A DNA stretch of 48,996 nt. Origin: Myxococcaceae bacterium. GTDB lineage: Bacteria; Myxococcota; Myxococcia; Myxococcales; Myxococcaceae. The notes beneath the pieces are model-generated. The model was given only the letters and a program-made list of their open reading frames with translations, was not told where the DNA came from and did not search any database. This document shows, piece by piece, positions 1 to 48,996 of this stretch. The stretch lies in NCBI GenBank assembly GCA_022842905.1, contig JALHOS010000006.1, forward strand, positions 1 through 48,996, written 5' to 3'. Numbering within the stretch: the first letter of the stretch is position 1; the number at the start of each line of letters is the position of its first letter. The position numbers and the translations under genes are program-made.

Positions 1-1215
1 GGCACCGCAGGCGCCGTCGACGCAGCTCAGGTCCGAGCCGCACACCGCGCAGGCCCCGGCGCCGACGCCGCAGGCCAGCGGCTGGTCGCCTGCTTGGCAC
101 CGCCCAGCCGCGTCACAGCAGCCAGGGCAGGTCGCGGGGCTGCACACCTGGAGCGGACCACCGCCCGTGCCCGCCGCGCCGCCCGCGTCGGTGGTCGAGC
201 CAGCGTCGACCGAGCCGCCAGCGCCCGAGGCACCGCCGCTGCCGCCTGCGCCTCCACTCCCGCCGCTTCCCCCTGTACCGCCGGCTCCACCCGAACCACC
301 AGCGCCGCCGTCCACCCAGTCCGGGTGCAGGAAGCCACCCGGCGGCGGAAAGCCGCGCAGGACGATCTCCCCACTCGGCGTCGCCCGGCTGCAGCTCGTC
401 CCGAAGCCGTTGAGCGCAGGCGCGCCCGCGTCAGCCCAGGCGGTCCAGAGGATCGACGCCATGAGCGTGAGCGCGTCGGCGAAGCGCCGCGCGGTCAGGT
501 CCCTCACCTGCGTGTAGAACGCCGGAAGGTCGCCGGGCGTCGCCACGTCGGCCTGCACGAGCGTCGGCACCAGGCCGTTTCCCACCAGGACGATGTCGAA
601 GATGTTGTGCCGTGGATCGGCGCGCCCCGGGGTGCCCACGTAGCTCCCGGCGAGCGCGCTGATGCCGTCCAGGTTGGCCCGCACCTCGAGCATGTCCGAC
701 TCCCAGCGCGCGTGGACGCCGTTGGGGTCTGAGTTCTTCGTGTCGTGGAGGATCGAGAACGAGTCGGTCACGTAGTGCGACAGCCAGAACGCGCGGTCGA
801 GAATGCGCGCTTCGTCGCGGGCGCGGAAGGCGGCGACGAGCTCGGCGTACACCTGCTCCACGCGCCAGGGGACGATGCCGTTGCGCAGCGCGTTCGTCGC
901 GCCCACTCGCTGCTCCACCGCGGCATAGCTGCGCGGGTAGTCCCGCGGCGGCGTCACCCAGTCGACTTCGATGAAGTGCCGCGGCCACTCGTTGGGGTCG
1001 TAGTTCGCGCCCGCGGTCATGTAGCGGTAGCGGTCGGGATCACACGCGCGATCCTGCAGCGCCGACGTCTGCCGCGCGGTGAACCAGGCGCGCAGGCAGT
1101 GCCCAGTCGGCAGCGGGTCCTGCATGGTGGCGGCCAGGCGCCGGTGGCCGGCGAAGCCCCACGCGTCGACGGTCAGCGCCACCAGGAACACACCCACGCC
1201 CGTCAACCGAACCAT
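1..1215 (-). CDS. Exported zinc phospholipase C / P1-nuclease-like protein with Cys-rich tail (partial, runs off left edge)
   Basis: The N-terminus is a signal peptide whose predicted cleavage after Ala18 exposes Trp19, with His24 five residues later. This matches the W1/H6 zinc ligands of P1 nuclease. Further ligand-like residues follow: His80, His147-x3-Asp151-x5-His157 and His168-x3-Glu172, the last resembling the HxxxE of bacterial phospholipase C. The catalytic domain (about 20-300) is followed by a Gly/Ser/Ala linker (about 308-350) and a Cys-rich module containing CPGCCD. The 3' end lies outside the window. I chose the ATG at 1215 because GAGG sits 8 nt upstream. An in-frame ATG at 1236 overlaps the stop of the upstream gene and is the alternative. 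The family hydrolyses phosphodiesters in phospholipids or nucleic acids; which substrate applies here is not visible. Confidence 0.75.
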   Translation of the reverse strand, partial: MVRLTGVGVFLVALTVDAWGFAGHRRLAATMQDPLPTGHCLRAWFTARQTSALQDRACDPDRYRYMTAGANYDPNEWPRHFIEVDWVTPPRDYPRSYAAVEQRVGATNALRNGIVPWRVEQVYAELVAAFRARDEARILDRAFWLSHYVTDSFSILHDTKNSDPNGVHARWESDMLEVRANLDGISALAGSYVGTPGRADPRHNIFDIVLVGNGLVPTLVQADVATPGDLPAFYTQVRDLTARRFADALTLMASILWTAWADAGAPALNGFGTSCSRATPSGEIVLRGFPPPGGFLHPDWVDGGAGGSGGAGGTGGSGGSGGAGGSGGASGAGGSVDAGSTTDAGGAAGTGGGPLQVCSPATCPGCCDAAGRCQAGDQPLACGVGAGACAVCGSDLSCVDGACGA

Positions 1216-1225
1216 GCGGCGAGCC

Positions 1226-2686
1226 TCAAACCGCATCCGTCACCGGGTGTGCAAGGGGGCCGGGCCCGCGCCGCGGGCGGTGGACCAGCTCGGCCACCCA
1301 CTGCTCGGCGACCCAGGACCAGCGCTCGAAGGCCGTCCCGCCACGGGCGGCGGTGGGACCGCGCCCGCCGTCGAAGACCGGCGTGGGCCCGCTCACGTCG
1401 ACGACCACCGCACCCGCCCCTTCGGCGCCGACGGTCGCTGTGACGAGGAGCACCCGACCACGCGTGGCCCACTCGGCTTCGAAGGTGGCAATGGCCTGTG
1501 CGGCCGCCGACGTGCGGCTGACCACGAGCTGCCCCGACGCCACGAACTCGCGCAGGACGAGGGAGGTGACCTGGAGCTCGTCGTCCAGCGCGTCGTCGGC
1601 CCCGGCGAGGACGAGCTCGAAGGTGAGCGCGTGGGAGTCGTACCAGCGGGCGAGCGCGCGCAGGAGCGCCGCCACGGCGCCGAACGCCCAGACCAGCCGC
1701 TGGACCGACTCGCCCGGATCCACCAGCCGCGCCTGCCTGAGCGACGTGTCCAGGACGACGAGGACCCGGCGGCGCCGGCGCACCGCGACGGCCTCGTCTC
1801 GGTCGAAGTACAGCAGCTCCCCTTCGACGAAGCGCACGTCGAACAGGTCCGGCCGCGGCGCGCCCTTCCCGTCCAAGTAGACCAGCTCGCTCGAGACCAG
1901 GTTCTCCAGCGAGCCGCGCGTGGTGAGGCTCGAGAACCCCCCGACGGGGTACGCCGACGCTTCTTCGATCGCCGTCGGGGCGCTGCCTTCTTCGAACAGC
2001 TGGCCCTTGAGCCGCTGCGGAATGCGCTCGCCGAGCGCCTGGCTCACCTCGGCGAGCTGCGCGAGGGCCACGCGAGCGGCCAGCGACTGGAGCGCGCGGA
2101 CGTTCTCCACGACGAAGACTTCGGCGTCCGACAGCAGCTCCGTCGACCCTCGCGCGGCTCGGGCCAAGGCCACGAAGCCCCGCGTCAGCGGCTCAGCGAC
2201 GGCGTCGAGCCCGCAGGCCAGCCGGCCGCGCTCGACGAACTCGGTGGGGCTCTTCTGGGCGACGCGGCGGAGCACGGCAGGGCTGAGACCGACCCCCTGC
2301 CCCGGAGCCAAGCGCCCCAAGATCAACGCCGCGGCCAGGCCGACCGCCTGGGCGCGCCGAGCCGGCTCCAGCGCGCTCAGCGCTTCTTCCAGCCGTGGCC
2401 ACCGGCGATCCGCCACGAGCCGCGCCAGGACATGATCTTCATACTGGCGCCGCGCGTCACCCAACGGCCCGGGCGGCTGCCACCGGGCGGCTTGAAGCCG
2501 GTGCCCGTTGGCGAGCAGCAGCAGATCGACCGCGAGTGAAGGGGCGGCGAGCACGGGCCGCTCCGCCAGCGCGGCCTCCATGGCCTGGCAGGCCTGCTCG
2601 AAGCCTCCGGGCAACAACACGGCGTCACGCGCCAGCGCGAGGCAGGCCGCTGCCGTGTCTTCCGCCGCCGCGCCGTCGAGCTTCAT
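1226..2686 (-). CDS. vWA-like protein with degenerate MIDAS
   Basis: A 486-residue protein (489 if the in-frame GTG at 2695 is used) with no signal peptide or membrane segment. The N-terminal half (about 1-230) is Ala/Leu-rich and helical. Around residue 252 comes a GGFSSLTTRG segment, then DLFDVRFVEGELLYF. At about 311-322 a hydrophobic strand ends in DTSLR, the position of the DxSxS metal site of von Willebrand A domains but with the second Ser replaced by Arg. This arrangement recalls the vWA partner of MoxR-AAA/vWA ternary systems, but no MoxR ATPase is visible nearby. It lies immediately upstream of the phospholipase-like gene, so the two are probably co-transcribed. Function unknown. 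Confidence 0.6.
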   Translation of the reverse strand: MKLDGAAAEDTAAACLALARDAVLLPGGFEQACQAMEAALAERPVLAAPSLAVDLLLLANGHRLQAARWQPPGPLGDARRQYEDHVLARLVADRRWPRLEEALSALEPARRAQAVGLAAALILGRLAPGQGVGLSPAVLRRVAQKSPTEFVERGRLACGLDAVAEPLTRGFVALARAARGSTELLSDAEVFVVENVRALQSLAARVALAQLAEVSQALGERIPQRLKGQLFEEGSAPTAIEEASAYPVGGFSSLTTRGSLENLVSSELVYLDGKGAPRPDLFDVRFVEGELLYFDRDEAVAVRRRRRVLVVLDTSLRQARLVDPGESVQRLVWAFGAVAALLRALARWYDSHALTFELVLAGADDALDDELQVTSLVLREFVASGQLVVSRTSAAAQAIATFEAEWATRGRVLLVTATVGAEGAGAVVVDVSGPTPVFDGGRGPTAARGGTAFERWSWVAEQWVAELVHRPRRGPGPLAHPVTDAV

Positions 2687-48292: not shown

Positions 48293-48996
48293 ATGGACCT
48301 CCCTGCCCGCCAACTCCGCTTCCTCCGCGCCTGCGCGCTGCTGCTCGGGCTGAGCTTCGCCGCGAGTCACGCCGCCTGCGCACGCAGCCAGCCGCTGTGC
48401 GGGCCGACCAACTGCACGGGCTGCTGTGACGGGCAGAGCCAGTGCCGCCCCGGGACGTCGGTCGCGGCCTGCGGTCAGGTCGGGTTGACCTGCCGCGCGT
48501 GTGGCCCCAGCGAGTTCTGCGCGCCGGCCGGCTGCACGCCGCGCGGTGGCAGCGTCGATGCTGGCCTCTGCGGCCCACAGAACTGCGCTGGGTGCTGCCT
48601 GGCGTCGGGGCAGTGCGTGGCGGTGAGCAACCTGTCGGCGTCCGCCTGTGGCCTGCGCGGCGCTCGTTGCAGCAGCTGCGTTCAGGCGGCGGGCCAGACG
48701 TGTGACGTGACCACGGGCCAGTGCGGCGGCTGCACCGGCTGCCGCAGCTCGTCGGGAGCGTGTAGCCCGCTGGCGCTGTCGGCCACGGACCGGCGCGCGT
48801 GCGGCGTCGGTGGCCAAGCCTGTGTCGACTGCGGCGTCGCCGGCACCTGCAACAGCGGCCGCTGCGTGGGCGGCTGTGACGGGTGTGTCACCGGGAGCCG
48901 CTGCATTCCGTCGGTGGTGAGCGGCAGCTCGGCGACCTCCTGCGGACTGGGCGGCGGCGCGTGCGTGACCTGCGGGGCGGGCCAGCAGTGCGTTGC
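48293..48996 (+). CDS. Cys-rich exported lipoprotein with repeated CxGCC modules (partial, runs off right edge)
   Basis: At least 234 residues in the window. Signal peptide with a likely lipid-anchor Cys29 (AASHAAC). The rest is a tandem series of at least four modules of about 45-50 residues, each with eight Cys: LCGPTNCTGCCDGQSQC, then about ten residues, ACG, about five residues, C-x2-C, and a closing C-x5-C. Second, third and fourth copies are less regular. The same module occurs at the C-terminus of the phospholipase-like protein at the left edge. Each is likely a disulfide-knotted unit at the cell surface. Confidence 0.75.
   Translation, partial: MDLPARQLRFLRACALLLGLSFAASHAACARSQPLCGPTNCTGCCDGQSQCRPGTSVAACGQVGLTCRACGPSEFCAPAGCTPRGGSVDAGLCGPQNCAGCCLASGQCVAVSNLSASACGLRGARCSSCVQAAGQTCDVTTGQCGGCTGCRSSSGACSPLALSATDRRACGVGGQACVDCGVAGTCNSGRCVGGCDGCVTGSRCIPSVVSGSSATSCGLGGGACVTCGAGQQCV

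Follow-up and report, generated by a model that had tools for sequence, protein, structure and literature searches.

Cys-rich repeats are already known as a kind among myxobacterial proteins. The repeat described by TIGR04201 (Myxo_Cys_RPT), which occurs in TraA, comprises three invariant and two weakly conserved Cys residues (PMC3325183). CglB, a lipoprotein, is an adhesin of the cell surface (PMC12288465), and folded proteins bearing a MYXO-CTERM tail are thought to be sent to the surface of myxobacteria by the type II secretion system (PMC11980579). The Cys-rich module analyzed here is absent from Pfam and NCBIfam, and nothing on it was found in a literature search that left most subscription papers outside. 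The module occurs in the proteins at both edges of a 48,996-nucleotide stretch of Myxococcaceae DNA (the window). This stretch is one complete contig (C6) of a 7.85-Mb genome assembled in 667 contigs, and both edges therefore are both contig ends.

The edge proteins of the window

The original prediction proposed a repeated unit common to the two edge proteins with at least four copies on the right. Four tandem modules were mapped in the right-edge protein and one in the left-edge protein, all five matching the module profile, which bears out both statements. The features are as follows.

48293-48996, plus strand: right-edge Cys-module protein; ATG at 48293, open at the contig end; the mature part consists of four tandem modules
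48293-48379, plus strand: putative signal peptide; the lipobox, HAAC, is non-canonical, and Cys29, the candidate for lipidation, is at 48377-48379
48398-48535, plus strand: module 1, ten Cys; E 9.5e-15; best of five structural models with a mean pLDDT of 88.6
48569-48724, plus strand: module 2, ten Cys; E 1.7e-14
48725-48865, plus strand: module 3, eight-Cys variant without Cys1 and Cys4; five-copy profile
48869-48994, plus strand: module 4, eight-Cys type, cut by the contig end ahead of Cys10; five-copy profile
1-1236, minus strand: left-edge protein; signal peptide, Zn-dependent phospholipase C (PLC)/P1-nuclease-like domain, Gly-rich linker, one module, contig end
385-1164, minus strand: PLC/P1-nuclease-like domain with a W-G-F-x-G-H N terminus and conserved H-x3-D-x5-H ... 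H-x3-E
145-330, minus strand: Gly-rich linker of the left-edge protein, delimited approximately from the sequence
7-144, minus strand: left-edge module, ten Cys; E 9.7e-14; DNA unique in the genome

The five window modules scored E values of 1e-11 to 1e-15 with a profile built from these same five copies, and all were recovered also with a profile of 33 modules. Within the window, matches were confined to the two edge ORFs, and the reversed sequences of all fetched ORFs yielded no match to the module profile. When the five-copy profile was searched against the source genome, as proposed with the original prediction, dozens more modules emerged.

Designation of the right-edge protein as a lipoprotein is plausible, but the lipobox (H-A-A-C29) is non-canonical; seven residues separate Cys29 from Cys1 of module 1, which is the modal spacing in the family. 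Contig C609 of the same assembly may hold the remainder of this gene, which is put forward as a suggestion only: the contig begins with two eight-Cys modules, a 3-base overlap of the window end with C609 would read C-V-A-G-R-C in frame, and in relatives modules of the eight-Cys type precede the same C-terminal domain as in C609.

The left-edge protein matched the Zn-dependent PLC/S1-P1 nuclease profile with an E value of 0.071, short of the cut-off. Its earlier description as phospholipase-like gains support via homologues, nine of 12 of which matched PF00882 at E ≤ 0.1 (best, 3.2e-6) and three of which matched PF02265. The PLC/P1-nuclease-like family (window 385-1164, minus strand, and loci L210-L226) is almost exclusive to genomes of the same bacterial family, mostly module-rich ones, and no plasmids carrying the left-edge protein were found.

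The fusion of this enzyme with the module is a genuine swap or, with lower probability, an assembly misjoin. The homologues from other genomes with a C terminus that could be read nearly all possess MYXO-CTERM-like tails and none possesses a module, and contigs frequently end in Gly-rich linkers of this type, both of which would fit a misjoin. However, the module DNA has no second copy in the genome, and the linker DNA of the left-edge gene has only weak matches (68-79%) elsewhere in it, so that no long exact repeat at which contigs could have been misjoined is seen. A misjoin thus is judged fairly unlikely.

Among module loci of known contig size, 15 of 26 are positioned ≤310 bp from a contig end compared to an expectation of 5.3% (binomial p about 3e-13, with the 310-bp limit set after the data were seen), and most contig ends at module loci fall in Gly-rich linker DNA. 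The presence of the module at both edges, although real, is therefore a coincidence made in part by the breaking of the assembly at module genes. Separately, the start of contig C179 (L032:1-13) consists of the Illumina adapter GCTCTTCCGATCT, which is read as 'ALPIS' in a module ORF and represents adapter contamination of the assembly.

Cys pattern and distribution of the module

The module had been described with eight Cys and a first gap of five residues. Instead, the full form contains ten Cys in about 46 residues, copies 3 and 4 of the right-edge protein being eight-Cys variants, and the first gap is four residues. The consensus from the profile of 33 modules of the source genome is C1-x4-C2-x-G-C3-C4-x5-C5-x8-C6-G-x5-C7-x2-C8-x5-C9-x4-C10, and the spacing ranges are C-x4-C-x1-3-CC-x3-7-C-x5-16-CG-x4-7-C-x2-C-x~5-C-x~4-C. 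The Cys and a few Gly residues are nearly invariant; the loop residues vary strongly.

Cys1 and Cys4 are kept or lost together. Upstream context was available for 342 distinct modules, and an upstream Cys was scored as Cys1 only when it was not Cys10 of the preceding module. Of these 342, 307 possess both residues, 35 possess neither, and none possesses only one. Fisher's test returns a p value of about 1e-48 for this co-occurrence, which overstates the significance since the modules are related. Clustering by sequence divides the 35 modules that lack the pair, which come from 26 loci, into 29 groups, and many of the losses thus probably are independent. As the two residues always are jointly present or jointly absent, the pattern is read most simply as a Cys1-Cys4 disulfide that may be dropped as a pair. 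The all-or-none behavior makes this a directly checkable disulfide prediction.

The best of five AlphaFold models of a single module reached a pLDDT of 88.6, with only two of the five models confident, and a four-module model was unreliable (pLDDT 49). Nothing matched when the single-module model was compared with structures by Foldseek and VIA-align, and the module profile produced a chance match alone (E 1.2) among solved structures.

The source genome contains at least 65 modules at E ≤ 0.001, and at least 146 were identified among 150 scored candidates in a relative (G150). These and other module counts are of scored candidates and hence are lower bounds. At least one module is present in 99 of 195 Myxococcota genomes. 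Several genera of the Myxococcaceae have at least 36 modules, genera with genomes of 9-14 Mb, several of them closed, have 0-5, and cultured-type genera have only 1-5. A scan of genome contigs, which requires a conserved peptide and is of low sensitivity, returned 28 module loci, all in metagenome-assembled genomes labeled as Myxococcota or as uncultured delta-proteobacteria (named Myxococcales, Myxococcaceae, Archangiaceae, Polyangiaceae, Myxococcus, Archangium, and uncultured delta-proteobacteria). Given this low sensitivity, restriction of the module to the Myxococcota phylum is likely. No relative was found among viral contigs.

Protein architecture and candidate roles of the module

The 131 non-redundant module ORFs include 80 with a single module and others with up to 14. 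In 61 of the 131 (of which 123 are 5'-complete), a lipobox-like Cys, the mark of a lipoprotein signal peptide, is located by a simple pattern ≤20 residues ahead of Cys1; about half of the module ORFs have no near lipobox by this pattern. The spacing between the lipobox Cys and Cys1 mostly is 4-10 residues with a mode of 7, and in 40 of 59 lipobox-bearing ORFs the first module is succeeded by a stretch rich in Gly. The usual layout comprises a signal peptide, the lipidated Cys, ~7 residues, one or more modules, a Gly-rich linker, and a variable domain. The partner domains are extracytoplasmic and include subtilase, clostripain, HmuY, CAP, FG-GAP, Kelch, pectinacetylesterase, IgGFc-binding, and CglB-like VWA domains. 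In the last case, L028 (610-1707, minus strand, on contig C98), the module is placed between the anchor and a VWA domain that matches the CglB profile NF033757 from profile position 34 onward (a score of 180 bits, below the cut-off of 200).

The anchor-proximal position is common but not universal, as is evident from the left-edge protein and from the 22 of 79 3'-complete module ORFs in which a module is at the extreme C terminus. None of these 79 ORFs has a MYXO-CTERM by a simple pattern. Four conserved lipoproteins (L140, L146, L149, and L154), encoded in genomes of the family that are closed or large, have a long stretch between anchor and module, and their last module is at the C terminus. 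A C-terminal Cys-rich domain of ~250 residues is common to several module proteins (L170:951-2259, minus strand; L026 on C609; L168-L178), and L170 carries another short Cys repeat where the others have the module. Misannotation of module proteins as 'tryptophan synthase alpha chain' also was considered, a guess that published papers did not support.

The favored reading, assigned a probability of roughly 0.55, is that the module is a disulfide-stapled mobile block that serves chiefly as the folded unit nearest the lipid anchor and acts as a spacer of surface lipoproteins. A small stapled domain of the Myxococcota would be reused across exported proteins, in which it would be followed by the flexible Gly-rich linker and then by the working domain. 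That the module sits between anchor and flexible linker whichever of the unrelated domains is attached suggests a general function, as a compact, oxidized spacer at the membrane. Module proteins probably are located on the cell surface, judging from this layout and from CglB, a known surface lipoprotein of which L028 is a module-bearing relative. With less certainty, the module may form a protease-resistant spacer or collar that distances the working domain from the membrane and shields the stretch adjacent to the anchor.

Alternatively, the module, folded close to the lipid anchor, may serve as a tag for sorting or retention, with an exporter such as the type II secretion system recognizing it and delivering the lipoprotein to the outer surface. 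The spacing from the lipidated Cys to Cys1 is near-constant whatever the partner domain, the module is grafted onto unrelated domains of which one is CglB-like, and in the left-edge protein it stands where relatives have MYXO-CTERM. The proposed export of folded MYXO-CTERM proteins by the type II system (PMC11980579) makes a sorting role possible. However, many modules are far from any anchor or are arrayed 4-14 in tandem, and both tandem and C-terminal modules count against a pure tag. Cultured-type genera, moreover, have very few modules. CglB itself apparently is displayed without a module, as NF033757 has just 33 positions before the part matched by L028, which leaves no room for a module ahead of the VWA region. 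A sorting tag is therefore an unlikely reading, and slightly less likely still is its extension to a folded, disulfide-stapled N-terminal surface-display tag that routes lipoproteins outward alongside the C-terminal MYXO-CTERM route, with heavy use among uncultured Myxococcota.

A binding domain for glycan, protein, or kin recognition that diversified through copy number is similarly improbable: strongly variable loops around fixed Cys and Gly residues, tandem arrays of up to 14 modules, and the Cys-rich repeats of TraA, a kin receptor (PMC3325183), would agree with it, but no conserved exposed residues other than Cys, Gly, and Pro are available to form a site, most of the 131 ORFs (80) carry just one module, and separate recognizable functional domains often are attached.

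In the favored reading as a spacer or otherwise, dozens to more than 100 modules per genome that are unlisted in Pfam and NCBIfam keep a large share of the proteins exported by several uncultured myxobacterial genera from being annotated. A module profile would at once mark such proteins as a class and delimit the attached domains. The module-bearing proteins of cultured-type genera, which have 1-5 modules, make the lipoprotein route to the myxobacterial surface testable.

Relationship to described Cys-rich families

The original prediction set the module apart from Stig1 and from the named Myxococcus Cys repeat, though with a distant likeness to both. This distinction was upheld, as no module matched any Pfam or NCBIfam entry significantly. 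In the comparisons that the prediction proposed, the Stig1 profile PF04885 matched none of the 33 modules even at E ≤ 10, and the matches listed for modules and for module proteins include none to TIGR02232 (myxo_disulf_rpt). The TIGR04201 profile reached a best E value of 0.15 in one of the 33 modules. The profile of the MXAN_6577-like Cys-rich protein (NF041328) matched six of 74 module proteins. Where the Stig1 and MXAN_6577 matches in whole module proteins were located (L129), they fall outside the module, and the NF041328 match in this protein also is under the cut-off.

It is possible, although only tentatively so, that the module is a divergent branch of the Stig1 or TIGR04201 Cys repeats and not a separate family. 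A common C-terminal trend (C..CG..G..C..GQ.C..G.C) is consistent with this view, as is an hhalign probability of 32.5% for the module against bacterial Stig1 repeats, over 31 columns confined to the C-terminal half. The expansion of Stig1 repeats and the module in the same Myxococcota genomes also agrees. Against a shared origin stand the lack of any significant Pfam or NCBIfam match to a module, the difference in Cys spacing, and the additional N-terminal C-x4-C-x-G-CC of the module. Stig1 repeats, a family named from plants, had 37 matches in the source genome, where L186 on contig C96 is one of the loci, and 114 in genome G155, with none in 14 control genomes.

Like the module, the Stig1 repeats (PF04885) are small, Cys-rich, and tandem, with a CG and a C-x5-C-x4-C tail. 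The two differ in central spacing, which is CG-x5-C-x2-C in the module and CG-x-C-x3-C in Stig1, and the C-x4-C-x-G-CC start is exclusive to the module. The TIGR04201 repeats of TraA, as with the module, are myxobacterial, Cys-rich, and part of cell-surface proteins, but the module has eight fixed Cys plus one removable pair. TIGR02232 shares with the module only name and host group. L028 resembles CglB (NF033757) as a lipoprotein with a CglB-like VWA domain, which in L028 comes after the module and a Gly linker, whereas no module fits ahead of the VWA part of the CglB profile.
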